From Synechococcales cyanobacterium CNB (lineage in GTDB: Bacteria > Planctomycetota > Phycisphaerae > Phycisphaerales > UBA1924), in assembly GCA_030263455.1 (NCBI GenBank), contig SZOZ01000012.1, forward strand, positions 62,001 to 126,000: a stretch of DNA of 64,000 nucleotides. The letters run 5' to 3'. Under the pieces are notes generated by a model, which was not told the DNA's origin, did not search any database, and saw only the letters and a list, made by a program, of their open reading frames with translations. Position numbers and translations under genes: made by a program. Below, in pieces: positions 11,193 through 24,832 of the stretch (its first letter is position 1; the number at the start of each line of letters is the position of its first letter).

Positions 11193-12065
11193 ATGCCCCG
11201 CGCCGCGCTGCTCGCCTACAGGCACGACGACGCCGAATCGACACGGGCGGCAACGCAGGTGCGCCCGCTCATCGAGCGATTCGGCCGACTCGTGGGCGTG
11301 GCGGATGCCAACGACCACGCCACGTCGCTCGACGGCAGGGGCGCGGACCTGCTCGTCGTCCTCGGCGGCGACGGCACCTTGCTCTCGATGGCTCGACGCA
11401 CTGTGATGCATGGCGTTCCCCTCCTCGGCGTGAACCTCGGCCGCCTCGGCTTCATGGCCGAGTTTGATCTCGCCTCCCTCGCTTCACACGCCGCGTCGCT
11501 CTTCGGCGACGCCCCGCTGCGCCTGCACGAACTGGCCCTCCTCCACGCCTCGGTGCGTGCCCCCGATGGCTCGACCCGCTTCGAAGGGCTTGCGCTCAAC
11601 GAGTGCGCCATCACCGCCGGCCCGCCCTACCGCATGATCGAGCTGGCCCTCAGCATCGACGGGCGGCCCGGCCCGATCGTCTCGGGCGACGGCCTCATCG
11701 TCTCCACGCCCACCGGCTCGACTGCGTACAACGTCTCGGCGGGCGGGCCGATCGTCGCGCCGGGGGTCGGCGCGTTCGCCATCACGCCAATCGCCGCCCA
11801 CACGCTCTCCTTCCGTCCCATCGTCGTGCCCGACTCGGCATGCGTCGAGATCGCCGCGTTGCGCGTGAACTACGACGCCAGAGGCAACGGCACCACGCTC
11901 GTCCTCGACGGCCAAGTGCAGACTTCGCTGGCTGCGGGCGAGCGTGTCATCCTCGCCCGCAACGGGCGCGGCGTGCGCTTCGTCCGCAATCCGGACGGCA
12001 GCTTCTGGGCGACCGTGATCGAGAAACTCCACTGGGCCGCCCAGCCCCGCATGCGCACCCCGTAG
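11193..12065 (+). CDS. nadK: NAD kinase
   Basis: NadK phosphorylates NAD to NADP in the cytoplasm. The 290-residue protein shows the three family motifs in order: the catalytic GGDGTLL (about residues 53-59), ALNECAI with the Asn-Glu pair (about 135-141), and the glycine-rich STPTGSTAYNVSAGGPIV. The C-terminal LDGQ stretch is also typical. The start ATG lies 8 bp after the dxs stop, and the downstream sixA-like gene starts 12 bp after its end, so the three are probably one transcript. NADPH made from its product is used by the MEP pathway, which fits the neighbourhood, though this link is inferred. Confidence 0.95.
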   Translation: MPRAALLAYRHDDAESTRAATQVRPLIERFGRLVGVADANDHATSLDGRGADLLVVLGGDGTLLSMARRTVMHGVPLLGVNLGRLGFMAEFDLASLASHAASLFGDAPLRLHELALLHASVRAPDGSTRFEGLALNECAITAGPPYRMIELALSIDGRPGPIVSGDGLIVSTPTGSTAYNVSAGGPIVAPGVGAFAITPIAAHTLSFRPIVVPDSACVEIAALRVNYDARGNGTTLVLDGQVQTSLAAGERVILARNGRGVRFVRNPDGSFWATVIEKLHWAAQPRMRTP

Positions 12066-13353: not shown

Positions 13354-13395
13354 CGTCCCGGGGAGGACTCGAACCTCCGACCTGCGATTTAGAAG
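13354..13395 (-). pseudogene. 3' half of a split host tRNA-Arg(TCT)
   Basis: Read on the minus strand, this holds the anticodon loop CTTCTAA, the 3' anticodon stem ATCGC, a five-base variable loop, the T arm (GGAGG TTCGAGT CCTCC) and the 3' acceptor strand CCGGGAC with discriminator G. The sequence 5' of the anticodon loop is element DNA and cannot form a D arm or pair with ATCGC. The missing half lies at 24794-24832. Joined, the halves make a perfect 74-nt tRNA-Arg with acceptor GTCCCGG/CCGGGAC. CCA is not encoded. Confidence 0.92.
13389..13395. other. attL core TTAGAAG
   Basis: The 7-bp sequence TTAGAAG is the complement of the tRNA anticodon loop CTTCTAA. An identical copy at 24794-24800 marks the other junction. 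On the left it is followed by element sequence (GCCGTAGGGA) and preceded by host tRNA sequence. Confidence 0.85.
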
Positions 13396-13452
13396 GCCGT
13401 AGGGATACGCACAGAATACACGGGAAATCGGCCACTTTCCAACGCTTCTCCA

Positions 13453-13477
13453 CCTTGGCAAGGATTCTGGCAAGGAT
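13453..13477 (+). repeat. Paired TGGCAAGGAT sites at left end (putative integrase arm sites)
   Basis: TGGCAAGGAT occurs at 13456-13465 and 13468-13477, 12 bp apart. The first lies in the near-palindrome CCTTGGCAAGG. The same 10-mer is found inverted at 24659-24668 near the other end and at 16700-16709. Position near both ends suits arm-type binding sites for the integrase. Confidence 0.5.
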
Positions 13478-13521
13478 CATCCCGCACAACCGGACCCCCA
13501 GAGGCCGGGAACCCTCTTTCC

Positions 13522-13550
13522 TTGGCGAGGGTTTCCGGGGTGCGTAGAAT
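13522..13550 (+). promoter_or_regulatory. Putative sigma70-type promoter TTGGCG-N17-TAGAAT
   Basis: A -35-like TTGGCG at 13522-13527 and a -10-like TAGAAT at 13545-13550 are separated by 17 bp. It would drive the excisionase-like and replication genes with a leader of about 220 nt. Confidence 0.45.
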
Positions 13551-13775
13551 ACTTGTGGCCCCCAAGATGAGCCGTCACCCGCCTTCAGGCGGAAACCGGG
13601 CCGGGGTCTGAATGATGAACTGCGAATGACGGACTGCGGATTCTGAAGCCCTGAATGATGAATGAGGAACCGCGAACTGCCCCAACCCGGCGCGTTCGTC
13701 CGTTCAGGGTTCCACCGTCCAGCGTAACGACGGCCCCGATTCGTTGACGGCCCGCGCCCCCTGGGAGCGTCCGTC

Positions 13776-14066
13776 ATGTCTATTGCATCATCCGGCGGGG
13801 CGCTCCCCGCCGAGTTCGCGCGTGAAGTCGCGTCGATCGTTCTCGCCGAAATCCAGCGCCGGGGCATCGTCACCCCTGAATACCTGGACAGCGCGCAAGC
13901 GTCGGTCTACCTGGGCATGAGTCAGGATTGGTTGGCCAAGGCCCGAAGTGACGGCGGCGGCCCCAACTACTCCAAGGTGTCCGGCTCCCGTGGCGGCGCT
14001 GTCCGCTACAAGCGCACCGACCTGGACAAGTTCATGGCGGCCCGCCGCACTGGGGAAGGCCGCTAA
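13776..14066 (+). CDS. Excisionase-like helix-turn-helix protein
   Basis: This 96-residue protein has a C-terminal MerR/excisionase-type winged helix: TPEYLDSAQASVYLGMSQDW, then LAKARSDGGGP, then GGAVRYKRTDLDKFMAA. The pattern (DSAQASVYLGMS, followed by a basic wing and RY+R-DLD-F) matches small DNA-binding proteins that act as AlpA/Xis-type directionality factors in integrated elements. Its place as first gene at the left end, two bases ahead of the replication gene, supports a role in excision or in turning on the replication operon. Which of the two cannot be decided from sequence. Confidence 0.72.
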   Translation: MSIASSGGALPAEFAREVASIVLAEIQRRGIVTPEYLDSAQASVYLGMSQDWLAKARSDGGGPNYSKVSGSRGGAVRYKRTDLDKFMAARRTGEGR

Positions 14067-14068
14067 AC

Positions 14069-16300
14069 ATGGACCCCGGATGCCACGCCAACTACTCCCA
14101 TGCCTGGGCGTTCCTTGATCGTTTCCACCCCAGGCGGCCCCGCACCATAACGGGAATCACGCTGGACAAGCGCCAGATTCCTACGGCCACCTTCGGGCCG
14201 AACCAGCGCGCCGACTTCCTCACTTGGGCGGAAGCGTGCGCGAAGATGCCCGCCAATCTCTACTTCTCCGTCGCCGAACCGATCGGTACGCCAACGGAGA
14301 AGATGAGCCGGGCGGAAGTCCGCGCCGTGCATTGGTTGCACGTTGACGTAGACCCCCGCAAGGGTGAAGACCTGGAGGCGGAGCGATCCCGAATCCTGGA
14401 ACTACTGCGCGATCCGACGGGGCTTCCCGCCCCGTCGGTCATCGTGTCCACCGGCGGCGGGTTCGCAGCGTACTGGGCGCTGTCGGAACCGATCATCATT
14501 GACGGGGACTTGGCCCGCGCTGAAGACGCGGCGCTCTACAACCTTGCGATAGAGCGGGCGTTGGGCGGGGATACTTGCCATGACGTTTCGCGCATCATGC
14601 GTCTTCCGTTCACCGTCAACCTTCCCGACGCTGGCAAGGTGAAGAAGGGCCGCGTTCCCGCTCTGGCCGCCGTGGTTGAGTGGCACGCCGATCGGGTCTA
14701 TCCGTTGTCCGCTTTCCCGAAGGCCCAGGTGGACGGACAGGCCCCGACGCCCAAGGTGGACGCGGCCAGCGCGCGCAGCATCGCGCACGTTGACGACCTG
14801 GGCGAGCGGGTTTCGGACAGGCTCAAAGTGTTGATCGTCAACGGGTGCAACCCCGACGAACCGAACCACTTCCCTTCCCGATCCGAAGCGGTCTTCTACG
14901 TCGCGTGCGAACTTGTCCGCGCCGGCCTGGACGATGCAACGATCCTGGGCGTACTCCAGCACCCGGAGTTCCGCATAGCGGAGAGTGTGCGGGAGAAGGG
15001 GAACGGGGCCGCGCGCTACGCCGCGCGTCAGGTGGAACGCGCCCGCGCCGCCGTTGATGAAGAGGCCGCCGATTTCCAGTGTGACGACAAGGGGAACCCG
15101 TTCCCGTCGCCCCACAATATCCGCGTGTCCATCCGCAAACAGGACGTGCGCCTCTGGTGGGATGAGTTCGCCGATCGGAAGTTCATTGAAGGCTTGACGG
15201 GGTTCGGACCACACCTTGACGACCGCGCCGTAGTCCGCTTGTGGATCAACGCCCAGGAAGTCCACCGGCTCCGAACCGGGAAAGAGTTCTTCCATGACGT
15301 TGTGTCCGACTACGCCATTTCCAACCGTCGGCATCCCGTGCGTTCGTACCTGGAGGAAGTCGCCGACACCTGGGATGGAACGCCCCGCGTTGAAACGTGG
15401 TTGATCGACTACGCGGGCGCTGAAGATACGCCCTACGTCCGCGCCGTGTCCCGCTTGCCCTTGGTGGCCGCCGTGCGCCGCATCCTGTCCCCAGGGTGCA
15501 AGTTCGATGAAATGCCGGTCCTGGAGGGACCACAGGGCGGCGGGAAGTCTTCGCTTCTCCGCACGCTTTGCCCCGATGAATCGTGGTTCACCGATGATCT
15601 TCCGTTGGACGGGGACGCCAAGCGGTTCATTGAAGCCGTGAAGGGGAAGTGGATCGTTGAGGCGGGCGAACTGAAGGGCATGAGGAAGGCGGAGGCCGAC
15701 GCGCTGAAGTCGGCGCTATCACGTCAAGTGGACCGGGCGCGCATGGCCTACGGGCGGGAGCCTGTAGAACTGGCGCGCCAGTGTGTCATCTTCGGGACCA
15801 CGAACAGTGAACGGTACCTGAAGGACACCACAGGGAACCGGCGGTACTGGCCGATCCGATGCGGGGCGCTGGACGTGGCCGGGCTTGCCAAGGTGCGCGA
15901 TCAACTCTGGGCAGAGGCCGCCCGCCTGGAGGCCGACGGAGTGTCGATCCGCCTGGACCCGTCCCTCTACCCGCACGCGGCGGAGGCCCAGGACGCCCGC
16001 CGACAGGAAGACCCGTTCATGGAAGCCCTGGAACCGGCTCTGGCGGGCTTGGTGGGCAAACTCCGCGCCCAGGACGCTTGGTCGATCGTCGGCAAGGCCG
16101 ACGTCGGCACGCGGACGCAGGAAGATATGAACCGCCTGGGGGAGGCCATGCGGATGCTGGGCTGGGAGCGGAGCCGTCGGCGGTTCGATGATGGACGGCG
16201 GGAGTGTTGCTACGTCAAAGGCAACGCTGGCGAGCGGGAACGGCCCGTGGTCCTGAACTGTGTGGAAGGGCGTTGGGAGGGGGTGTCCGATGCCTTCTAG
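14069..16300 (+). CDS. Primase-helicase: AEP-like primase fused to VapE-type ATPase
   Basis: This 743-residue replication protein belongs to the element. The N-terminal part holds WLHVDVDPRKG (V92-D95), which resembles the catalytic acidic pair of archaeo-eukaryotic-type primases, and VIVSTGGGFAAYWALSEP followed by CHDVSRIMRLPFTVN, as in plasmid and phage primases. The C-terminal half is a VapE-family ATPase: the Walker A GPQGGGKSS starts at about residue 487, then WIVEAGELKGMRKAEADALK and VIFGTTNSERYLKDTTGNRR. The last ~100 residues may be a DNA-binding tail. It starts 2 bp after the HTH gene and ends at a gene-poor region with many TGGAC repeats, a plausible origin. Such proteins initiate replication of phage satellites and integrative elements. 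Confidence 0.85.
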   Translation: MDPGCHANYSHAWAFLDRFHPRRPRTITGITLDKRQIPTATFGPNQRADFLTWAEACAKMPANLYFSVAEPIGTPTEKMSRAEVRAVHWLHVDVDPRKGEDLEAERSRILELLRDPTGLPAPSVIVSTGGGFAAYWALSEPIIIDGDLARAEDAALYNLAIERALGGDTCHDVSRIMRLPFTVNLPDAGKVKKGRVPALAAVVEWHADRVYPLSAFPKAQVDGQAPTPKVDAASARSIAHVDDLGERVSDRLKVLIVNGCNPDEPNHFPSRSEAVFYVACELVRAGLDDATILGVLQHPEFRIAESVREKGNGAARYAARQVERARAAVDEEAADFQCDDKGNPFPSPHNIRVSIRKQDVRLWWDEFADRKFIEGLTGFGPHLDDRAVVRLWINAQEVHRLRTGKEFFHDVVSDYAISNRRHPVRSYLEEVADTWDGTPRVETWLIDYAGAEDTPYVRAVSRLPLVAAVRRILSPGCKFDEMPVLEGPQGGGKSSLLRTLCPDESWFTDDLPLDGDAKRFIEAVKGKWIVEAGELKGMRKAEADALKSALSRQVDRARMAYGREPVELARQCVIFGTTNSERYLKDTTGNRRYWPIRCGALDVAGLAKVRDQLWAEAARLEADGVSIRLDPSLYPHAAEAQDARRQEDPFMEALEPALAGLVGKLRAQDAWSIVGKADVGTRTQEDMNRLGEAMRMLGWERSRRRFDDGRRECCYVKGNAGERERPVVLNCVEGRWEGVSDAF

Positions 16301-16302
16301 CC

Positions 16303-16616
16303 GTCCATGCCTCCGCCCAGGGCTGGACGCCCAGGGGTGGACGGGAAATCGCCCCTGGGGCTTCAGGAACGCCGATTTCGACCCCCTGTCCACCCTGTCC
16401 GTCCTGGACCACCCCACTTCCCCAGAGGGGCTAGCGGCCTGTGCTATACCCCTACCTGTCTATTCCTTTGATGAAATAGGGGTGGACAGGGTGGACAGTA
16501 GTAGAAATGGCCTCTGGGACTTCAGGAAGGCCGAATCCGCGTCCACCCCTGGGCATGGACGGAGGATGGACAGGGGATGGACGGCTCCGCCCCGGCTTGG
16601 GCGTCCATGCCGCGCA
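16303..16616. other. Putative replication origin with TGGAC/GTCCA iterons
   Basis: About ten copies of TGGAC or its complement GTCCA occur in some 310 bp, among them CTGTCCAC at 16386-16393 and two GTGGACAG at 16482-16489 and 16491-16498. Between these oppositely oriented clusters lies the only AT-richer patch (about 16455-16480), itself bounded by the inverted repeat ACCCCTA (16448-16454) / TAGGGGT (16477-16483). The region directly follows the primase-helicase gene. This is an origin-like layout; function is inferred. Confidence 0.45.
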
Positions 16617-16801
16617 AGCCGCGCCGCATCCGATAACCCCTCGCGCGCCCGTGACCCTTGGTTATCGCACCCTAGACCACCCTTGCCAAGGGCCGCCGAA
16701 TCCTTGCCAACGCCCCTTGGTCCGCTAGGAACCGCCTTCCCGTGGCCCCAGGGGCGTATCCCTTCCGCCTGTTACTTCCCGGCTCCGACCACCGACCATC
16801 G

Positions 16802-16891
16802 TTCTCGGACCACCACCTGTGAAGATGGGAGGTCTGGGAGGTCTGCAGTGGTTATGAGGGGGTGGTCCGAGAAATCGCAGATTCTCGGACC
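16802..16891. repeat. 13-bp perfect inverted repeat plus a third partial copy
   Basis: TTCTCGGACCACC at 16802-16814 is exactly complemented by GGTGGTCCGAGAA at 16861-16873. A third half, TTCTCGGACC, sits at 16882-16891. The spacer of 46 bp contains the direct repeat GGGAGGTCT. It lies 75-165 bp upstream of the next gene and could be an operator or a long hairpin. Confidence 0.7.
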
Positions 16892-16965
16892 TAGGTACCC
16901 CTCCACCCCAGCGCCGGGCACCATTTCGATCATCGCAACTTGTTAGTAGTCGCAAACCAATAGCC

Positions 16966-17625
16966 ATGAGTACGAAACCACCCACACCCCTTGATCCGAA
17001 CGGCCTCCCGCCCATGCCTTCGCGCGGATGCCCGGTCAGTTCCAGCATGTTCGATCGACTGTTGGAGGCCGCGCGCCGTGGCGGTTGGCCCGCCGTCTAT
17101 ACGGTCTTCGCACAGGGCGAAACCGTCATCGACCGTGGCGGCCTGGGCGGAGTGTGCGAACGCCCCTCGCGCCGCGCCACGTTGAATGAGTTCCTCGCCA
17201 AGCGTTCGGACTTGGCCGCGCTCTTGGATAACGCGGCCCAGGAACGGCGGGACCGGCTCTTGGAGAATCTCCAAGATGAGGTGGAACAGATAGCCCTTGG
17301 GCCGGGCGACGTTACCCAGGACTTCGACGATAAGGGCCGACTGAAGCGCACGCGGATTGATCGGCGCAACAAACTTCACGCGCTGTTGAAACTGTTGGCC
17401 GCGCACGATCCCGACACCTACGCGGAGCGCCGCAAACTGGACGTGGCCGGACAGGTGAATCACGCGCACGCCCACCTGTCATTGGGCAACGCACCCGGCG
17501 GGTACGTTGTAGATATGGACTCCGTAGCGGCGCTGGAGCCGGGCGAGCAAGCCGAACTGTTCCGACTTCTCACCAAGATTGAAGACGCGCGCCGCGCGCT
17601 TCCCCCTGGAGATTCCGACCAATGA
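16966..17625 (+). CDS. Terminase small subunit-like protein
   Basis: This 219-residue soluble protein has a long charged helical middle (QERRDRLLENLQDEVEQIAL), then a linker with DKGRLKRTRIDRRNKLHALL, and the segment KLLAAHDPDTYAERRKLDV, then AGQVNHAHAHLS. Arg-rich helix, then a xxPxxYxxR-like turn, then a V-x-G-x-V strand is the pattern seen in phage small terminase subunits. That similarity is by eye only. If correct, it would let the element redirect a helper phage's packaging machine, as phage satellites do. It starts the plus-strand run downstream of the origin-like region and overlaps the next gene by 4 bp. Confidence 0.5.
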   Translation: MSTKPPTPLDPNGLPPMPSRGCPVSSSMFDRLLEAARRGGWPAVYTVFAQGETVIDRGGLGGVCERPSRRATLNEFLAKRSDLAALLDNAAQERRDRLLENLQDEVEQIALGPGDVTQDFDDKGRLKRTRIDRRNKLHALLKLLAAHDPDTYAERRKLDVAGQVNHAHAHLSLGNAPGGYVVDMDSVAALEPGEQAELFRLLTKIEDARRALPPGDSDQ

Positions 17626-17855
17626 ACGCAAGCGACCACCAAAGGCGCGTGGCCTTCCTGAACCTGAAGGCCAACGCGGGCGCGATCACACCAGATGAGC
17701 GGGCCGAACTGGATCAACTGTGCCAACTGCGCTTCGTTGAAACCACTGGAGGCGGGCCGATCATCGTGGAACCGCTCCCGATCCGGCCCGAAGACTGGAA
17801 CGCATACGCGCAGCGCCGCAACGCTGAACGCACGCAGTTTCATACGGATACATAA
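17622..17855 (+). CDS. Small unknown protein of the element
   Basis: Not recognised. The 77-residue sequence MNASDHQRRVAFLNLKANAG, then AITPDERAELDQLCQL, reads as helical and soluble, without signal peptide or membrane segment. The ATGA overlap with the terminase-like gene argues it is translated from the same message. Confidence 0.6.
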   Translation: MNASDHQRRVAFLNLKANAGAITPDERAELDQLCQLRFVETTGGGPIIVEPLPIRPEDWNAYAQRRNAERTQFHTDT

Positions 17856-17885
17856 GGCTACATAGTTTTACAAGATAGTTCGTAC

Positions 17886-17913
17886 TTGTCAGTATTTCCG
17901 AGCAACGTAGAAT
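17886..17913 (+). promoter_or_regulatory. Putative promoter TTGTCA-N16-TAGAAT close to a start codon
   Basis: TTGTCA at 17886-17891 and TAGAAT at 17908-17913 are 16 bp apart in an AT-richer gap. The next ATG begins 4 bp after the -10 box, so a normal start site would give a leaderless message at the ATG ATG of the following gene. Confidence 0.5.
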
Positions 17914-17917
17914 ACTA

Positions 17918-18322
17918 ATGATGCAACCGGAAGAGGCCACAACCATTGCGGAGAAGATCATCGACTCCGACTTGATGCCCAAGCCAACGGCCTTGGCCGT
18001 CATCGCGGCCATTCAGGCGGCGGGCGGGGCGCGTGTCGGCCCGGAGCATTTCGTCCCGGCGGCCAAGGCAAAGCGCGCCAAGGTGCGCAGCGTGGCGGCG
18101 GCCTGTGGTTGGGGGCGATGCTGGCATTGTGGCGAGTGGCGCGACGTGGGCGCGGAGCCGCCGGACGATCCGTGTACCTGTCCCTGTGTGGTTGAAGTCA
18201 TCGACGATGAAACCTGGGCCGCGCTGTCCGTCTACTTCCTGTGCGGCGGCCCAATCCGTGCATCCCTTGGCCTTCCGGCTTCACTGGCGGCGCGCTCCCG
18301 CCACTTCGATCCCGCCGTTTGA
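17918..18322 (+). CDS. Unknown protein with a cysteine-rich zinc-ribbon-like loop
   Basis: Not recognised as a family. The 134-residue protein has a helical first half and then CGWGRCWHCGEW followed after 11 residues by PCTCPC: six Cys in about 30 residues, suited to binding zinc. The C-terminal third is hydrophobic-mixed (ALSVYFLCGGPIRASLGLPA). It is preceded by a promoter-like sequence that would start transcription at its first codons. The stop codon lies inside the first of three hairpins before the next gene. Confidence 0.55.
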   Translation: MMQPEEATTIAEKIIDSDLMPKPTALAVIAAIQAAGGARVGPEHFVPAAKAKRAKVRSVAAACGWGRCWHCGEWRDVGAEPPDDPCTCPCVVEVIDDETWAALSVYFLCGGPIRASLGLPASLAARSRHFDPAV

Positions 18323-18451
18323 CGACGGCGGTATGGTTTCGCATCGCGGTTGGCATCCCCGTGGTGCTCCTCTCTCCGCCGTGGTGGGCATACCACGGCG
18401 GGGTTTCCGAATCTGAATCACCCTCCCGCCCGCTAGTGGCGGACGGGCGGG
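18312..18451 (+). promoter_or_regulatory. Three consecutive RNA hairpins before the next gene
   Basis: Hairpin 1 pairs 18312-18318 with 18325-18331 (CCGCCGT/ACGGCGG) and covers the stop codon of the gene upstream. Hairpin 2 pairs 18376-18385 with 18392-18401 (CCGCCGTGGT/ACCACGGCGG, loop of six). Hairpin 3 pairs 18425-18432 with 18444-18451 (CCCGCCCG/CGGGCGGG), followed by TTT and then directly the ATG at 18455. Termination, attenuation or masking of the start codon are all possible. Confidence 0.6.
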
Positions 18452-18454
18452 TTT

Positions 18455-19198
18455 ATGGCAAACGAACGAATCGACACGTCCATTTCAATGTCGGTCACTC
18501 CCGAAATGATCGACGTTCACCGGGACGGCTTCATCCTGGGCGCGAACACCGACGGTTCACCCGTCTTCCATGATGCCTTCACCAAGGCGCGGGCGACGAT
18601 GGAAGCCGTCTTCACCAAGTCGCGTGCGCTGTCCGAAGCCGAGCGGGCGCTAAAGGCGGCCACGGCCCAGCAAGCCGACCCCGCCCAGGAACGCCGACTC
18701 CGCACGCTGGCCGCCCGCACCCTGGGCGAATGTCGGAAGGCGGTTGAAGGGGCGTTGGAGTCCATCGGGGCGCATCGCGCAAAGGCCGATGAGGAAATCA
18801 CGAACGCCCTGGGCATCCCGGCGGCGCGTCTACAGGTCACAGATTCCCAGCGTGCATCGGACGTGCGGGCCGCGCTGCGCGCAATGGGCAAGGCCGAACG
18901 AATGGCCGCGCTGCGCTCCGCCGTTCAGGACGGGGACGCGGAAGCCGTCGGCGCGATCCTGTCGGCCAGTCCGCTTGCGGCGGGCCTGTCCCGAACCGAA
19001 GCGGACAATCTGCGCGCCGACGCTGAACGGCGGTTCACGCCCGAACTGGCCGCGTTCCGGTCCAATCTGGACCGGCTACGGGAAGTCATCGTCCGCGCTG
19101 GCGACGTGACGGAGAAGCGGTTCGGTTCCTTGGTCGGGCGCGGAAACTCCCCCGCCGCACGGGTGGAGGCGGCGCTGTCGGCGCTGGAGTCCAACTGA
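18455..19198 (+). CDS. Unknown element protein, mostly helical
   Basis: Not recognised. The 247 residues are rich in Ala, Glu and Arg (SEAERALKAATAQQADPAQE, then RRLRTLAARTLGECRKAVE) and likely form long helices or coiled coils; the first 45 residues look more folded (MIDVHRDGFILGANTDGSPV). No membrane or signal sequence. The start codon sits three bases behind a GC hairpin and has no evident Shine-Dalgarno sequence. The ATGA overlap with the following gene indicates joint translation. A structural or scaffold role in a phage-like particle is possible but unsupported. Confidence 0.6.
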   Translation: MANERIDTSISMSVTPEMIDVHRDGFILGANTDGSPVFHDAFTKARATMEAVFTKSRALSEAERALKAATAQQADPAQERRLRTLAARTLGECRKAVEGALESIGAHRAKADEEITNALGIPAARLQVTDSQRASDVRAALRAMGKAERMAALRSAVQDGDAEAVGAILSASPLAAGLSRTEADNLRADAERRFTPELAAFRSNLDRLREVIVRAGDVTEKRFGSLVGRGNSPAARVEAALSALESN

Positions 19199-19893
19199 TG
19201 GCGGAAGAGAATCCCAGTACGAACCCGTCGGAGGCGGAGTCCGTCGCCAAACTGACCAAGGCGCTTGAAGCCGAGCGCGCCGCGCACGCGGCCACCAAGT
19301 CCAAACACCGGGAGTTCTGCGCGTCCGTCTACAAGGCGCGCGGCCTCCCGGATGATGCCACCCCCGATGCACTCTTCGCGTCCCTGGGCGATGAGGAAGC
19401 CCGCGTGGCCGAACGCACAAAGTCGATTCAGGAAGAGCGGGACGCGGCCTTGAAGCGTGCGGAACAGGTGGCGGGCGAGTGGAACGCATTCCGTATTGAC
19501 CGCGCATTGTCCGAAGCCTTCACCAAGTCGGGCATGAAGCCGGAGAACTTGGAAGATGCGTTGGCGATGGCGCGGGGCCTGTTCACCGTCGATGAGAAGG
19601 GCCGCGTTCACACCAAGCCGGACGCGCCGAACACTGTCCCCGGCCAGAGCGCCGAAACCTGGGCGTTCAGTGAACTTCGCGCCAAGCGCCCGCATTGGTA
19701 CCCGCCGAGCATTGGCGGCGGCGCGAAGACACCTGGCGCGGGGTTCGTATCCCGCGTGGATGATTCATGCTTCAACCCCCGAAGCCCCAATCACAACTTC
19801 ACGGCGCAACTGGCGTTTGAGGGGAGATACGGCGCGAAGGCCGCCGCCGACGCCCGCGCGAAGTACCGCCACCTGGGAGGCAGTTTCGTATGA
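19198..19893 (+). CDS. Unknown coiled-coil protein of the element
   Basis: The 231-residue product begins with an acidic helical region (EAESVAKLTKALEAERAAHA), continues with a second coiled-coil stretch (ERTKSIQEERDAALKRAEQV), and ends with a Gly/Pro-rich tail (SIGGGAKTPGAGF) and FTAQLAFEGRYGAKAAADAR. Charged coiled coil followed by a flexible tail recalls phage scaffold proteins, but no signature proves it. It overlaps both neighbours by 4 bp (ATGA), so three unknown genes form one translational unit. Confidence 0.6.
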   Translation: MAEENPSTNPSEAESVAKLTKALEAERAAHAATKSKHREFCASVYKARGLPDDATPDALFASLGDEEARVAERTKSIQEERDAALKRAEQVAGEWNAFRIDRALSEAFTKSGMKPENLEDALAMARGLFTVDEKGRVHTKPDAPNTVPGQSAETWAFSELRAKRPHWYPPSIGGGAKTPGAGFVSRVDDSCFNPRSPNHNFTAQLAFEGRYGAKAAADARAKYRHLGGSFV

Positions 19894-20288
19894 AGACCGA
19901 GCATCAACTGTGGTCCGCGCGGGGTTTGGCCGTGGCGGAAGACGTGCGCCGGGAAGTCGCCCGCCGCGCCCTGAAGTCGGTTCGGCTTCAGGTGGAGCGG
20001 GCCGGGGGCGACTGGGACGACCACTCCGCCCAGGTGCGGGCCGCCGTCCGGGACTTCCTGGGCGGCGCATCGGCCTACCACGTCATCCTCTACGCGGCCT
20101 CCGCCGAAGCCGTCCCGCATCGGTACACCGGGCCGGGCGATGAGGCATTCCCCGGAGCCGTCCGGCGGGCCGTGCGCCGCATTGGACGGCTTCTCCCGGC
20201 GCTGGCCGCCGTGGCGGGCCTGGAGGCTTTGGCCTCCACCCTGGGCGAAGACTCGCCCTTGGTCCGGCGCTTGCGGGCGAACGGGTAG
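19890..20288 (+). CDS. Small unknown element protein
   Basis: Not recognised. The 132-residue protein is rich in Ala and Arg, with a helical N-terminus (EDVRREVARRALKSVRLQVE) and a C-terminal helix pair (RRAVRRIGRLLPALAAVAGL) that could be amphipathic. It is the last gene of the overlapping trio; a promoter-like sequence for the methyltransferase follows. Confidence 0.55.
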   Translation: MKTEHQLWSARGLAVAEDVRREVARRALKSVRLQVERAGGDWDDHSAQVRAAVRDFLGGASAYHVILYAASAEAVPHRYTGPGDEAFPGAVRRAVRRIGRLLPALAAVAGLEALASTLGEDSPLVRRLRANG

Positions 20289-20310
20289 ACAATCCACAGG
20301 GCCGCGCCGG

Positions 20311-20339
20311 TTGCGAACCCCGGACAGGGCCGCTATGCT
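20311..20339 (+). promoter_or_regulatory. Putative methyltransferase promoter TTGCGA-N17-TATGCT
   Basis: TTGCGA at 20311-20316 and TATGCT at 20334-20339 are 17 bp apart. The ATG at 20347 begins 7 bp after the -10 box, at the expected transcription start, so the message may be leaderless. Confidence 0.5.
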
Positions 20340-20346
20340 CCGGGCA

Positions 20347-21441
20347 ATGAAGACGATGAGTGACAATGCCCCCGGCCTCTTCATCGGTGAAGTGAAGCCG
20401 GACACGCGGGATACGGCCTTGGACTCTGTGCCCGGCCTGGATACCCGCCTGGTGGAACGTCACCCGCGTTCATTCAAGCGGGACGGGGTGCGAATCAGCA
20501 AGGGGGACGCCCAGGACCACTACGCCGACTGGGATTCACCTGTGGCGATCATCGCGGATGGCCCCTATGGAGTGGCGGGGTATCCGGGCGATCCTCCGAA
20601 GCCGGACAAACTGGGCGAGTGGTACGAACCCCATATCGCGGAATGGGCCAAGCGGTCTACCCCGCTCACAACGCTATGGTTCTGGAACACTGAAGTAGGT
20701 TGGGCGAACGTGCATCCTGTTCTGACCCGCTACGGGTGGGAGTACCGGGGCGCGAGCGTTTGGGATAAGGGCATCGCGCATATCGCGGGCAACATCAACA
20801 CGGCCAGCATCCGCCGCGTCCCCGCCGTTACGGAAGTCTGTGTCCACTACACGCGCGAAGCCCGCTTCACTGTGGACGGGCAAGATGCGCCGATGAAGGA
20901 ATGGCTACGCGCGGAGTGGTTGCGTTCCGGCCTCCCGCTCTACAAGACCAATGAAGCGTGTGGGGTCATCAACGCGGCCACTCGGAAGTATTTCACGCAA
21001 TGCCACCTGTGGTACTTTCCACCGGCGGAAGCCTTCACCCAACTTGTGGAGTACGCCAACAAACACGGGAAACCGGAGGGGCGGCCCTACTTCTCCATCG
21101 ACGGGAAGCGCTCAATGACCGGGGAAGAATGGGAGCGGATGCGCGCCAAGTTCCGTTGTGAACACGGGATCACGAACGTATGGCGCGAACCGGCGGTACG
21201 CGGCGCGGAGCGCGTGAAGAATGGGATGAAGGCGCTTCACTCCAACCAGAAGCCACTATCGCTAGTGGAACTCACCCTCCGCATGACAACCGATCCGGGT
21301 GATATGGTGTGGGAGCCGTTCGGCGGCCTTTGTACCGCCGCCGTTGCTTCGCACCACCTGGGCCGCCGATGCGAAGCCACCGAAATCAATGAAGAGTTCT
21401 ACGCGCTGGCTATTTCGCGTCTGGCCCGCTACCGCCGTTGA
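20347..21441 (+). CDS. Type II DNA methyltransferase (beta-type motif order)
   Basis: This SAM-dependent enzyme protects the recognition site of the neighbouring restriction enzyme. The 364-residue sequence has the catalytic motif as ADGPYGVAG (D71-Y74; a DPPY variant with Gly in second place) near the N-terminus and the SAM-binding block WEPFGGLCTAAVASHHLGRR then ATEINEEFY near the C-terminus. Motif IV before motif I is the beta arrangement of N6-adenine or N4-cytosine enzymes. The HSNQKPLSLVELTLR segment is typical of the class. The start is taken at the ATG at 20347; an in-frame ATG at 20356 lies inside the repeat shared with the controller gene. Its end overlaps the convergent restriction gene by 32 bp. 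The recognition sequence is unknown. Confidence 0.88.
   Translation: MKTMSDNAPGLFIGEVKPDTRDTALDSVPGLDTRLVERHPRSFKRDGVRISKGDAQDHYADWDSPVAIIADGPYGVAGYPGDPPKPDKLGEWYEPHIAEWAKRSTPLTTLWFWNTEVGWANVHPVLTRYGWEYRGASVWDKGIAHIAGNINTASIRRVPAVTEVCVHYTREARFTVDGQDAPMKEWLRAEWLRSGLPLYKTNEACGVINAATRKYFTQCHLWYFPPAEAFTQLVEYANKHGKPEGRPYFSIDGKRSMTGEEWERMRAKFRCEHGITNVWREPAVRGAERVKNGMKALHSNQKPLSLVELTLRMTTDPGDMVWEPFGGLCTAAVASHHLGRRCEATEINEEFYALAISRLARYRR
20351..20367. promoter_or_regulatory. Controller-box-like repeat, copy 1 (methyltransferase start)
   Basis: AGACGATGAGTGACAAT matches 16 of 17 bases of the copy at 22643-22659. It covers the first codons of the methyltransferase gene. It contains GAC and its spaced mirror, and may bind the controller protein. 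Confidence 0.45.
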
Positions 21442-22360
21442 AGACTTCCGGCGCGTCCAATGACTTGTCCGCGATGAGCGCTTGAAGCGTGGCCTTGTTC
21501 TCCGCCGCCTCCACCTGGGCGAGTACGCGGGACCATTGGGCAACCGTGCGCCCCTTGAAGGTCATTCCGAGTACGCGGCGTTTGAACTCTTCAAGGGACG
21601 TGTGTTCGATGCGATCCATCTTGGCGAAGTTCGTATCCAAGCGATACTTGAACTTGCCCAGCAAGCCCGCCAACTTCGCTTGGTACGCGGGATCATGGGA
21701 GAATGTCTTCCCGTTTCGCCCCCAGGATGCCACGATTCGTTCCGCTTCCTTGAACTGGGCGGGCGTGCCTTGGAACTTGTAGCCGTTCGTGTTCGTCTGT
21801 TGAAGGTTGGCCGTACGCGCGGACGTGTCTTCCGGCTCAAACACCAAGTAGTCCGGCGGGTTGTGGTAGTGTTTGTCCCGCGCCTCCGCCACACTCCGCG
21901 CCGTGTCTATCCACACGTCAAGGATGCGGGGCCGCCCGAAGATGATGAACTCCGGTACCCATGCCAGCATGGCCACGTTCGTTTGGTCATCCGCAAAGTG
22001 TGTGATTGAATCCTTGAAGCGCGCCGTGATTTCGGTAGCGAGCGGGAACCACGTCTTGATCTCGATTCCCGGCGCTGGCGTCACCGATCCCCTGAAGATT
22101 GTGTCAGGGAAGCCGGGGTCTTGGCGCTCCCACTTCCCCTTCGGATGCGCCACCTTCTCATTCAGGTACGAAACCGCCCCGTACTCAATCATGTTGCCGA
22201 CAAGCGGAGAGAGTTTGGACACCACCTTGGACAGATGGAGCGCGTAGTCCAAGTCCGGCGGGCGCGCCACTTCCAACACGTCCAGCGTTCGGCCTGCGAA
22301 GCCCGCAAGCGTCTTGGATGCGTCCAGTAGAATCGACTTGTATTCAGGTACTTTCGGCAT
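21410..22360 (-). CDS. Type II restriction endonuclease of PD-(D/E)XK type
   Basis: This 316-residue protein has a recognisable nuclease core: PGFPDTIFRG, with D86, followed by GIEIKTW, with E100 and K102, i.e. PD-x13-ExK. Upstream, SPLVGNMIEYGAVSYLNEKV is a helix of the kind that precedes the core in restriction enzymes. It faces the methyltransferase gene (convergent, 32-bp overlap) and lies directly behind the controller gene, whose TGA shares one base with this ATG. That context makes it the cognate restriction enzyme. It belongs to no group I can name, and the target site cannot be predicted. Confidence 0.82.
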   Translation of the reverse strand: MPKVPEYKSILLDASKTLAGFAGRTLDVLEVARPPDLDYALHLSKVVSKLSPLVGNMIEYGAVSYLNEKVAHPKGKWERQDPGFPDTIFRGSVTPAPGIEIKTWFPLATEITARFKDSITHFADDQTNVAMLAWVPEFIIFGRPRILDVWIDTARSVAEARDKHYHNPPDYLVFEPEDTSARTANLQQTNTNGYKFQGTPAQFKEAERIVASWGRNGKTFSHDPAYQAKLAGLLGKFKYRLDTNFAKMDRIEHTSLEEFKRRVLGMTFKGRTVAQWSRVLAQVEAAENKATLQALIADKSLDAPEVFNGGSGPDAK

Positions 22361-22605
22361 CAGGGCTTCAGGTGCGCCTCCATCGCGGAGAAGAGCGCGC
22401 TGGGCGGGACGCCCAAGCCTGAAGCGATGCGAACAATGCTGACAAGCGACGGGTTCCGCTCTCCCCGTTCAACGTCGGCAAGGTACGTCCGATGGAGCCG
22501 ACAGCGGGCGGCCAACTCTTCCTGGGACAAGTCCAGCGCGTGGCGCTTCTCCCGGATGGCAAGTCCGAAGGCATCCGCTATCGCTTTGGCGTTGACACGC
22601 GACAA
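22360..22605 (-). CDS. XRE-family controller (C) protein of the restriction-modification system
   Basis: An 81-residue Cro/CI-type DNA-binding protein. The helix-turn-helix reads LSQEELAARCRLHRTYLADVERGERNPSL, and size and position match C proteins that delay restriction-enzyme expression when an R-M system enters a new cell. Translation is coupled to the restriction gene by a TGATG overlap. No ATG is available; the only plausible start is the TTG at 22605. A 17-bp sequence about 40 bp upstream recurs at the methyltransferase start and is the best candidate operator. Confidence 0.82.
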   Translation of the reverse strand: MSRVNAKAIADAFGLAIREKRHALDLSQEELAARCRLHRTYLADVERGERNPSLVSIVRIASGLGVPPSALFSAMEAHLKP

Positions 22606-22642
22606 TGGGACAACGATCCCGGCTTGACGCCGATCCGTCTAC

Positions 22643-22659
22643 AGTCGATGAGTGACAAT
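22643..22659. promoter_or_regulatory. Controller-box-like repeat, copy 2 (upstream of the C gene)
   Basis: AGTCGATGAGTGACAAT, 16 of 17 bases identical to 20351-20367. On the minus strand it supplies TTGTCA, a possible -35 element for the controller gene, so binding here could give autoregulation. Confidence 0.45.
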
Positions 22660-22740
22660 CCGGGATATCGGGCGGCGCGGACTTCGGACGTGAATCAAGC
22701 GCCCTTGGCGTACACTCCGCCCAACACCAAGGGAGCCGCC

Positions 22741-22995
22741 ATGTTTCGAGTCATCATCCGAGTGAGTTTCAACGGGGACACCGGCAGCAAGTTGCGCAAT
22801 GCCCTTGCTCTAGACAATGCCGCGTCCTATGGCCTCTCAAACACCAGCACGGGCATGTATGAAGGGTCCACCGTCACTCCGGCGCAGTTGGCCGCGTTGA
22901 TGCAAAGGCTGGGGGCGCTGGGCGTCCCTGCGGACATTGCGGCTGGGACAACCGCAACCCTGGACCATTTCATGGTGTACGTTGCCCCCGTCTGA
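22741..22995 (+). CDS. Small unknown protein between R-M and tRNA-Arg
   Basis: Not recognised. The 84-residue sequence starts MFRVIIRVSFNGDTGSKLRN and ends ATLDHFMVYVAPV, suggesting strand-helix-strand-helix-strand (ferredoxin-like) topology. The ATG at 22741 has AAGGGAG eight bases upstream. An in-frame ATG at 22648 inside the controller-box repeat would give a longer product, but lacks such a site. It ends 3 bp before the convergently oriented tRNA. Its role may relate to the R-M genes or to the integrase/tRNA unit; nothing decides this. Confidence 0.6.
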   Translation: MFRVIIRVSFNGDTGSKLRNALALDNAASYGLSNTSTGMYEGSTVTPAQLAALMQRLGALGVPADIAAGTTATLDHFMVYVAPV

Positions 22996-22997
22996 AA

Positions 22998-23071
22998 CGT
23001 CCCCGGCTGGACTCGAACCAGCAACCACCCATTTAGAAGACGGGAGCGCTATCCAGTTGCGCCACGGGGAC
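22998..23071 (-). tRNA. tRNA-Arg(TCT) carried by the element
   Basis: A complete 74-nt cloverleaf on the minus strand: acceptor GTCCCCG/CGGGGAC, D stem GCGC/GCGC, anticodon stem CCCGT/ATGGG with loop CTTCTAA (anticodon TCT), T stem GCTGG/CCAGC with loop TTCGAGT, discriminator G, no encoded CCA. It reads AGA/AGG codons. It differs from the split host gene in all stems, so it is not a recent duplicate. The mature 5' end is 16 nt from the integrase stop on the same strand, so it may be processed from the integrase message. Its loop contains the att core TTAGAAG. Confidence 0.95.
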
Positions 23072-23087
23072 AGGGTTTGGGACCATT

Positions 23088-24644
23088 CTACGCGCTGGCC
23101 TGTCGGCTTGGGCGTCCGGCGGCCTCCCGTTCGATGCGGCCCGCCGGGTTCGTAGCCCCTGGACCGGTCCCCGCCTTGCGGATCAGGAAGCCCGCCACCT
23201 TCTCCGTTGCGGCCCGCATGGCGTCCATGCTGGGCCGGTTGTACCTGTGGTTCATGTTGGCGCTGTCGGGGGTGTGGTTCATCAGCGCCTTCATCACCCG
23301 TTCCGACACGCCCACTTCCTCTTCATCGGCGGTTGACGCGAAGGTGTGGCGCAGGACGTGGGCGGAGGCAATGGCCGTGAACTTGCGGGGTTGCCCCTTC
23401 GGGTCATTTACCCATTCGCCCGCCACGTTCCGCCTGAACCGGGCCACCTTGCCCGCCGCATCCCTCATGTAGTCCTGTTCCTTGGGTTCGCGCAGGTTGA
23501 CCAATCGGCCTTCCTTGTCCCGCGTCGGGAACACCCACCCTTGATCGTCGCCGACGATGGACGGATTCTCCGCCTTGCGGCGCTTCAGGATTTCGACCAC
23601 GGGCGCGGACAGGGGAACCGTGAACGCTTTCCGCTCCCCGCCCTTCGGGCATGGCCGGTGCATCGACTTGGGCGGAAGCGCCACCCGCTCCCCCTGGGCG
23701 TTGACGTACCACCCCGGCTTGTCGGTCAGGTTCACTTCATCCCAGCGCAGCATCCGGGAATCCTCGTTCCGAAGCCCCGTCAACAGAACGAACCAATGCC
23801 AATCCCGACGAACGGGGTTCGTAACGCCATTGACGCGGGCCGCCCACTCCGGGAGCGCCGCCCAGTCGATCGGCTTCCGCGTCCCCTCTTCATTCCACAC
23901 CTTGCGGAACTTCCGAACGGGGTTCATCGCGTGTTCGTCCGCGTCGAAGCGCTCCGCCGCGCTGTTCCAGACGGCGCGGAGCATCCGAAATGCCTTGTTG
24001 GCGACGATCGGCCCGTGGTCCTGGGTGATGCGCCGGTGTCGGTCGATACATTCCCGCTTGGTCAGGGACGCCACTGGCCGTTCCATCCACTCGCCCAGGT
24101 AGCGGGCCATTTCGTCCCGCATCCGATCGACCGAGCGGGCGCGGTTCCGGGCCTTCATGTTGGCGACGTGTTCATCAATGGCCTGGGCGAGCGTGAACGC
24201 TTCCCATTCGTCCGGGGCCTGGGGCGCTTGCTCCGGGCCGTCCGCGTCCACCTGCGCGGCCTGAGGAGCGTCGGCGCGGGCCTGGGGGCGTGCGGGTGCG
24301 CCGTCGCGTTCGAGCCGGTCCCGGACGTGGGCGACGATCCGGGCGGCCTCCGCCGCGTCCCCGGCCTTGGCCGCCTTGTTTGCGTCGCCCAGTTCGCCCC
24401 GGACCTTCTCCGCCAAGTCCCGGAAGTCTGAGGCCGTCCGCTTGCCACCGACGCGGCCCAGGGCCACCCGGACGGCCTTCCCGCCTACGTCGCGTTGGAC
24501 GTAGAACGTGGCCGACTCCCCGGACACCTTCAACAGGAACCCCTTCAACTTGTCATCGGTGAACACCACCGGCTTCCCGGCTTTGGCCGCCTCCGCCTTG
24601 CACTTCTCAACCGCCCCGTTCGTCAGGTACACACGCCGCGCCAT
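23088..24644 (-). CDS. int: Tyrosine-type integrase
   Basis: This 518-residue site-specific recombinase inserts and excises the element. The N-terminal ~110 residues resemble the arm-binding DUF4102-like part of tRNA-targeting integrases (VFTDDKLKGFLLKVSGESAT). A linker rich in Ala/Pro (about 115-148) follows, then a SAM-like core-binding domain (about 150-250) and the catalytic domain with R292 in LLTGLRNEDSRML, HVLRH at 429-433 (H429, R432), H457 and the likely nucleophile Y468 in NMNHRYNRPSMDAMRAA. The linker and the C-terminal tail beyond Y468 are longer than usual. The gene lies about 150 bp from attR; an arm-like repeat is 15 bp upstream of the ATG and may allow self-control. Confidence 0.93.
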   Translation of the reverse strand: MARRVYLTNGAVEKCKAEAAKAGKPVVFTDDKLKGFLLKVSGESATFYVQRDVGGKAVRVALGRVGGKRTASDFRDLAEKVRGELGDANKAAKAGDAAEAARIVAHVRDRLERDGAPARPQARADAPQAAQVDADGPEQAPQAPDEWEAFTLAQAIDEHVANMKARNRARSVDRMRDEMARYLGEWMERPVASLTKRECIDRHRRITQDHGPIVANKAFRMLRAVWNSAAERFDADEHAMNPVRKFRKVWNEEGTRKPIDWAALPEWAARVNGVTNPVRRDWHWFVLLTGLRNEDSRMLRWDEVNLTDKPGWYVNAQGERVALPPKSMHRPCPKGGERKAFTVPLSAPVVEILKRRKAENPSIVGDDQGWVFPTRDKEGRLVNLREPKEQDYMRDAAGKVARFRRNVAGEWVNDPKGQPRKFTAIASAHVLRHTFASTADEEEVGVSERVMKALMNHTPDSANMNHRYNRPSMDAMRAATEKVAGFLIRKAGTGPGATNPAGRIEREAAGRPSRQASA

Positions 24645-24658
24645 ATCGGACCTCCGAA

Positions 24659-24685
24659 ATCCTTGCCAAGGCTCTTGGCAAGGTC
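24659..24685. repeat. Inverted arm-like repeats at right end
   Basis: ATCCTTGCCA at 24659-24668 is the exact complement of the left-end TGGCAAGGAT. TTGGCAAGGTC at 24675-24685 is a further copy with two changes. They lie between attR and the integrase start. Confidence 0.5.
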
Positions 24686-24707
24686 GGTCCCTCCATAACC
24701 GTACTTG

Positions 24708-24780
24708 ACGGCTACAAGGGGACCGAACGGAAATCCCTACGGCGCAGGGCGTTTACAACACTTTGGGCTACGGCTACAAG
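24708..24780. repeat. Direct repeats ACGGCTACAAG near attR
   Basis: ACGGCTACAAG occurs at 24708-24718 and 24770-24780. Between them is TCCCTACGGC (24734-24743), the complement of GCCGTAGGGA that follows attL at 13396-13405. In the circular form the two would flank attP as an inverted repeat. Confidence 0.6.
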
Positions 24781-24793
24781 TCCATAGCCGCCC

Positions 24794-24832
24794 TTAGAAG
24801 ACCGCTGCTCTGTCCAGCTGAGCTACCGGGAC
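24794..24832 (-). pseudogene. 5' half of the split host tRNA-Arg(TCT), with attR core
   Basis: Read on the minus strand from 24832: acceptor GTCCCGG, TA, D arm GCTC-AGCTGGACA-GAGC, A, anticodon stem GCGGT and loop CTTCTAA, where the core TTAGAAG (24794-24800 on the plus strand) ends it. What follows (GGGCGGCTATGG and onward) has no matching anticodon stem, no T arm and no acceptor strand, so the gene is not restored. It joins perfectly with 13354-13395. Confidence 0.92.

Follow-up and report, generated by a model that had tools for sequence, protein, structure and literature searches.

A planctomycete integrative element that splits a host tRNA-Arg(TCT) gene and carries a complete tRNA of the same anticodon

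The split tRNA-Arg(TCT) gene and the tRNA genes of its host

We analysed a stretch of 64,000 nt (positions 62,001 to 126,000 of contig SZOZ01000012.1, assembly GCA_030263455.1; hereafter the window) from a genome of the Planctomycetota, in which a tRNA-Arg(TCT) gene is split by an integrated element of 11,412 bp (13389–24800, both cores included; GC content of 64.5%, as compared with 67.6% for the window). The 5′ half of the host gene (24794–24832, minus strand) ends in the anticodon loop at the junction proximal to the integrase gene (int), and the 3′ half (13354–13395, minus strand) begins in the anticodon loop at the distal junction. The two halves overlap in CTTCTAA only, which is the 7-nt anticodon loop; on the plus strand it reads TTAGAAG and forms a 7-bp core with one copy at the int-proximal end (24794–24800) and one at the distal end (13389–13395). 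The original prediction held that the halves join at this core into a tRNA-Arg(TCT) and that neither junction rebuilds the gene, and both statements stand: the halves joined by script are called tRNA-Arg(tct) by ARAGORN (with one G-U pair in the anticodon stem), and ARAGORN calls no tRNA in the window at either junction of the element. The anticodon loop is followed by GGGCGGCTATGGA at the int-proximal junction, whereas GTATCCCTACGGC stands before it at the distal one; the gene is completed in neither case.

The int gene (23088–24644, minus strand) encodes a tyrosine integrase of 518 aa (Pfam PF00589, E 2.2e-7; phrog_1 integrase, E 3e-36). Downstream of int, after a gap of 16 nt, the same strand has a complete tRNA-Arg(TCT) (22998–23071; found by ARAGORN and by RF00005, 61.7 bits), and it is indeed a different gene, as had been proposed, since 18 of its 74 positions do not agree with the joined host gene. 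The element shares with tRNA-dependent lysogeny a tyrosine integrase with a short (7-bp) core that overlaps a host tRNA gene; restoration of the target tRNA by element sequence, which defines islands of the Islander type, is not observed.

It is extremely improbable that an error of assembly or binning joined the tRNA halves to foreign DNA, even though the source is a draft of 17 contigs. The same junction sequences recur independently in another genome (G125), with a 99%-identical integrase and a different host flank, and both ends are resolved in nine elements (see below), which makes chance or a misjoin unlikely; moreover, a comparable case of a split gene plus a substitute is found in the complete genome CP036296.1 (Pla86), and congeners have intact genes. 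The split of the tRNA-Arg(TCT) gene by an 11.4-kb element is thus confirmed. The congener G056 has an uninterrupted tRNA-Arg(TCT) where the junction lies, and the downstream flank of the window follows it on the same contig; the upstream flank matches a different G056 contig, so the synteny at this site is one-sided. Relatives that share the same halves and lack the element would have spoken against an insertion; what the related genome has instead is the intact gene.

RF00005 has 45 matches in the host genome, a 98.7%-complete draft of 3.21 Mb in 17 contigs, and the Arg ones among them are ACG, CCG and the TCT of the element. A pattern for the 3′ arm of tRNA-Arg(TCT) has exactly two exact matches in this genome, the broken 3′ half and the element tRNA. 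Neither RF00005 nor the 3′-arm pattern found another intact tRNA-Arg(TCT) in the 98.7%-complete genome, the finding that the original prediction had named as the one that would remove essentiality. (A side observation in the same genome is a 72-nt tRNA-like sequence, G000:C6:531-602, near a contig end, that scores 33.7 bits as Ser(GCT) without a long variable arm; a longer Ser(GCT) is present too, at C5.) The AGA codon is in use: it accounts for 36 of 14,256 codons and occurs in 17 of 27 long mechanical open reading frames (ORFs) outside the element. AGG alone could be read by tRNA-Arg(CCT) too, yet Arg(CCT) here comes from a second element.

These observations also bear on the possibility that the element tRNA serves mainly as an anti-defence or translation aid, with the loss of the host gene tolerated and AGA read by other tRNAs. 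Phage tRNAs have been proposed to counter tRNA-cutting defences (PMC10865867), but the element tRNA is the sole intact one with a TCT anticodon that the searches of the host genome turned up, AGA is used, and at three different targets (TCT, CCT and TGT) the tRNA carried by the element is of the very isoacceptor that was disrupted, so that we consider this explanation very unlikely. The claim that the gene was destroyed and replaced in trans is well supported, because the observations that would have contradicted it were looked for and not made: no second Arg(TCT) was found, a congener has the intact gene, and the junctions recur.

Related elements and the integrase family

Two more integrases in the host genome, 44 and 47% identical to the window integrase, belong to elements of ~15 kb each. 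The C1 element splits a tRNA-Thr(TGT) gene (5′ half at C1:87796–87832, 3′ half from C1:103234) and has a complete tRNA-Thr(TGT) at C1:101691–101763, 14 nt behind int. The C2 element splits a tRNA-Arg(CCT) gene (5′ half at C2:416487–416525, 3′ half at C2:401461–401503); its substitute is another tRNA-Arg(CCT), 15 nt behind int and interrupted by 299 nt. Arg(CCT) is absent from the 45 RF00005 matches of the host genome, and the sole Thr(TGT) among them is that of the C1 element. The intron-bearing Arg(CCT) gene escapes the RF00005 search, and a second such gene would therefore escape it too; a search of the host genome with the intron found one copy only. In G056 the C2 site is unoccupied, with one continuous match (675/675, 92%) and an intact tRNA-Arg(CCT). 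For the C1 site, G056 and G357 each have the upstream flank together with an uninterrupted tRNA-Thr(TGT), and the matches to the downstream flank are on other contigs.

Relatives of the integrase (E 1e-20 or better, in genomes sampled from the larger order and class) were found in seven of 400 genomes of the order, host included, and in four of 397 genomes of the class, all four being among those seven. Fifteen integrase loci are from named genomes, and the total is 20 loci after removal of duplicates. Viral contigs gave 30 pattern matches, none of them confirmed, and 50,697 phage records gave no relative at E 1e-5.

Eleven of the 20 loci combine a split tRNA with an element tRNA of the same anticodon, and both ends were seen for nine of them: those in Arg(TCT) genes (the window, G125, G044, G246, G212, G700 and Pla86), the C1 element (Thr TGT) and the C2 element (Arg CCT). 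In all nine, the joined halves give the expected tRNA, the anticodon of the element tRNA equals that of the target (in C2 after removal of the intron), and the junction letters rebuild no functional tRNA. The substitute tRNA is just downstream of int and on the same strand in 10 of the 11 loci, with gaps of 12–17 nt in eight loci and 52 nt in G700 (int stop at 11305, tRNA at 11358); in G020 the tRNA is 17 nt past the end of the integrase match, and in Pla86 the substitute is ~0.9 kb from the opposite element end.

The 3′-arm pattern search covered nine genomes. In G125, G044, G246, G700 and Pla86 the broken 3′ half and the element tRNA match exactly and nothing else does; G212 has an exact match at the 3′ half and one mismatch in the element tRNA. 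No further TCT loop was found at one mismatch in the six other Arg(TCT) genomes with both ends seen. The genome G317, the element of which targets Thr(TGT), has one ordinary Arg(TCT) by this pattern. The pairing of integrase and tRNA next to a split tRNA-Arg(TCT), for which a search elsewhere had been suggested, is thus present with both ends in six other genomes. Judged from sequence, the design belongs to an integrase family that is mostly from Planctomycetota and has several tRNA targets.

A few loci deserve mention for themselves. L072, L073 and L074 are related planctomycete integrases, one of which is a second locus in Pla86. At L075, L076 and L077, proteobacterial integrases of the same broad family adjoin 3′ tRNA halves broken in the anticodon loop. 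The G020 locus (L062) has an element tRNA and one half, and its integrase frame is just 268 aa.

Gene content of the elements and the intron of one substitute tRNA

A putative arm-type integrase site found by repeat search near the distal junction (13452–13477) has an inverted partner at 24659–24684 (77% complementary), so placed that the repeats sit 57–135 bp inside the two element ends; similar putative sites are at both ends in G044 and, with the pattern used, at the int end only in G125. The distal part of the element encodes, all on the plus strand, an HTH_17 (excisionase/AlpA-like) protein of 96 aa (13776–14066; PF12728, E 1.8e-7; phrog_66, E 2.6e-5), which is a candidate directionality factor and is conserved in G125, G044 and G212; a VapE-like primase/helicase of 743 aa (14069–16300; PF05272, E 1.8e-72; PHROG helicase/primase families), with 59 relatives in viral contigs; backbone proteins of 219 aa (16966–17625; conserved in G125, G044, G246 and G212) and 134 aa (17918–18322; from comparison with related elements); and a 231-aa protein that resembles a phage head scaffolding protein (19198–19893; phrog_206, E 5.2e-11). 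The cargo consists of a DNA methyltransferase ORF (20140–21441, plus strand, coordinates of the ORF rather than of a fixed start; PF01555, E 1.5e-14; PADLOC type II MTase, E 4.6e-18), a type II restriction enzyme (21410–22360, minus strand; PADLOC REase_II, E 1.4e-46) and a restriction-modification control (C) protein (22360–22605, minus strand; PF01381, E 2.1e-15; PADLOC Control_protein, E 4.7e-21).

Apart from the one scaffolding-like match, Pfam, PHROGs and NCBIfam gave no capsid, portal, tail or large terminase in a scan that took in the window ORFs other than some short ones and, from the cargo of the other elements, one G125 protein. In the proteins scanned, then, the window element does not look like a temperate phage. 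By its appearance the 219-aa protein had been guessed to be a small terminase, which is not supported by AlphaFold, Foldseek or a sequence search of PDB: the AlphaFold model is of low confidence (mean pLDDT 57.7), Foldseek found no viral structure at E 0.001 (some weak matches, at E 0.7–1.6, are named terminase small subunit), and no relative in viral contigs was confirmed. Phage-inducible satellites of the SaPI/PICI type are small and have int, an HTH_17/AlpA-like protein and a VapE-like primase. The window element is PICI-like in being small and in sharing these three genes with such satellites, to which it adds the substitute tRNA; no helper phage, packaging gene or terminase was identified for it.

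Counted from the distal end, the G125 and window elements share 97.5% identity over 6.9 kb, and their integrases are 99% identical. The window cargo at 20289–22994 has no counterpart in G125, and the two substitute tRNAs differ at 26 of 74 positions (the anticodon arm is ACGGATTTCTAATCCGT in the G125 tRNA and CCCGTCTTCTAAATGGG in that of the window element). As the integrase is constant while tRNA and cargo differ, the substitute tRNA and the cargo are exchanged, with the anticodon kept. We also note that what the otherwise 97.5%-identical G125 element lacks is a type II restriction-modification set with a control protein (window 20140–22605).

The 299-nt insert in the C2 substitute lies between U36 and A37 and ends in G, and its excision in silico gives a tRNA-Arg(CCT). 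Visual inspection shows that UCCU, with which the exon ends, could pair with an intronic GGGA and so place a G-U at the splice site, which is a trait of group I introns. When the intron was used as a DNA query at E 1e-3, 47 of the 400 genomes of the order gave matches, although many of these are short; in 23 genomes E is below 1e-15. We inspected the best 15 loci, including the host copy: in all 15 the intron is at the same place in tRNA-Arg(CCT), measures 283–342 nt and has G as its last base, and its removal in silico leaves a tRNA-Arg(CCT), so that the features of a group I intron in this position (insertion after an anticodon-loop U, a terminal G, and exons that give a tRNA) are present throughout. 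The Rfam group I model RF00028 matches two of the 15 loci at 31.3–31.9 bits (E 2–3e-4), below its gathering score of 50, and an Rfam search with the C2 intron of the host has no match. Group-I-like introns at U36/A37 of tRNA-Arg(CCT) thus recur in the order, at 14 other loci (L131–L144), and the Rfam group I model scores them poorly or not at all.

In two of these genomes (G202 and G092) the tRNA exons are the same as those of the C2 element, and the introns are 91% and 82% identical, respectively; no related integrase is present within 1.5 kb of the intron-bearing tRNA, or genome-wide at E 1e-10. From the identity of the exons and the similarity of the introns, the C2 element most likely captured a chromosomal, intron-bearing tRNA-Arg(CCT) gene. 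The intron sits exactly in the core used by the C2 integrase, so the DNA target would be gone and the RNA repaired by splicing, which is predicted for this tRNA. The intron in this one element would then make the substitute immune to its own integrase. Family members keep such introns in tRNA-Arg(CCT) genes that do not adjoin an integrase of this family. A more speculative idea, which we find possible though rather doubtful, is that group I introns in the anticodon loops of bacterial tRNA genes shield these genes from integrases, to the benefit of hosts and also of elements that have taken them over.

Proposed mechanism and relation to known systems

It is very probable that the window contains a tRNA-dependent integrative element that destroys its target and supplies a substitute tRNA. 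The tyrosine integrase would use the 7-bp core of the element and the loop of the host tRNA-Arg(TCT) anticodon as its two recombination sites. The sequence shows that integration destroys the gene, because element and gene share the anticodon loop only. The element tRNA-Arg(TCT), perhaps transcribed together with int, would take over the decoding of AGA. The integrated element, or its tRNA, could then be lost only by precise excision, in which the HTH_17 protein may act and by which the two halves would become a whole host gene again; any other loss would presumably be lethal. Expression, charging and essentiality of the element tRNA are predictions from sequence, and "addiction" is a consequence that we read from the gene inventory. 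The substitute may escape the integrase by changes in the anticodon arm or by an intron: the element tRNA keeps the loop and differs in the arm, and would therefore be a poorer target. Across the elements, 2 to 11 of 17 anticodon-arm positions differ between element tRNA and target; two unrelated tRNAs would differ anyway.

Several observations weigh against this reading. In G246 and G212 only 2 of the 17 arm positions differ, so that escape from the integrase is not obvious from the sequence. The host genome is a draft of 17 contigs. Two of the 11 loci show one end only, with a half and an element tRNA (G317, Thr TGT; G020, Arg TCT); the distal 3′ half of G020 was not found by the pattern, which matches only its element tRNA. 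Eight of the 20 loci count neither as replacing nor as restoring: five (L067, L068, L075, L076 and L077) have, by eye, a half tRNA near int, with no far end found in the stretch fetched, and three (L072–L074) have no tRNA half by the patterns used and an intact tRNA-Arg(CCT) 1.2–4.3 kb downstream. Finally, the L071 element of G703 restores its target, with an intact tRNA (located with RF00005, which was searched in eight relatives) at the distal junction that has the same 5′ half.

This last case speaks for a rival reading of the window element as an ordinary island, the target of which was once restored at a junction and later decayed, with the internal tRNA as incidental cargo. The integrases of L071 and Pla86 are sisters in the tree (100/100 support; most deeper branches are weak), so replacing and restoring are close evolutionary neighbours. 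But nine elements with both ends have no rebuilt gene and all have a tRNA of the same anticodon, and 10 of the 11 positive loci have the tRNA right after int and in the same orientation, an arrangement that independent decay would not yield. We therefore regard an ordinary island as highly improbable, and tRNA-dependent integration as the better account.

The principle is already published and is not unprecedented. tRNA-dependent lysogeny was shown by experiment in mycobacteriophages (Guerrero-Bustamante and Hatfull 2024, PMC10865867; Fionnbharth, cluster L and Gaia, with further actinophages listed), in which the cores are 8–17 bp and the phage tRNAs are needed for efficient lysogeny; in Gaia the tRNA is likewise downstream of int, and there, as here, related integrases exist that do restore the gene. 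Actinophages as described in that paper are temperate phages of Actinobacteria, whereas the nine elements here have no virion gene set in the proteins scanned. In further contrast to the account of actinophages there, our integrase has no match in a phage collection, the tRNA is usually directly behind int, three elements are found in one genome, and one of them has an intron-containing tRNA. For Lj965 of Lactobacillus johnsonii, loss of the host tRNA at integration and its takeover by a phage tRNA are mentioned as a proposal (PMC10865867), and some prophages of S. meliloti were placed in the same class by authors who study them (PMC11476347, PMC12429752); these are prophages in other phyla, and the passages concerned mention neither an intron nor a linkage to int. 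Islander islands resemble the present elements in having a tyrosine integrase and in crossing over within the anticodon loop, which PMC4383910 lists among the sublocations, but there the disrupted tRNA is restored at one junction, which is not so here. The gain of archaeal tRNA introns has been explained by an attP that carries an intron, which the rebuilt gene acquires (Sugahara et al. 2012, PMC3293823); an integrase target is linked to an intron in both cases, whereas here a whole separate intron-bearing tRNA is carried. According to a review of bacterial group I introns, the phage introns observed up to its writing are all in protein-coding genes, even though phages have numerous tRNA genes (PMC3984707).

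None of the literature matches listed describes the present combination, in a search that most subscription papers fell outside. What appears to be new is that such elements exist in Planctomycetota and have no detected set of virion genes, the placement of the substitute tRNA right after int (10 of 11 loci), three substitutions in one genome, the exchange of tRNA and cargo under a 99%-identical integrase, and a substitute tRNA with a group-I-like intron exactly in the core of its integrase.

tRNA-dependent integration thus extends from phages to small elements of Planctomycetota in which no virion gene set was detected, and in the Pla86/G703 sister pair one integrase replaces the tRNA and the other restores it. 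Islands of this kind would escape searches built on a restored tRNA plus a fragment. The intron-bearing substitute makes it testable whether anticodon-loop introns protect tRNA genes from integrases. A single bacterium can owe three of its tRNA isoacceptors to mobile elements, and the set of tRNAs that a genome encodes can depend on mobile DNA.

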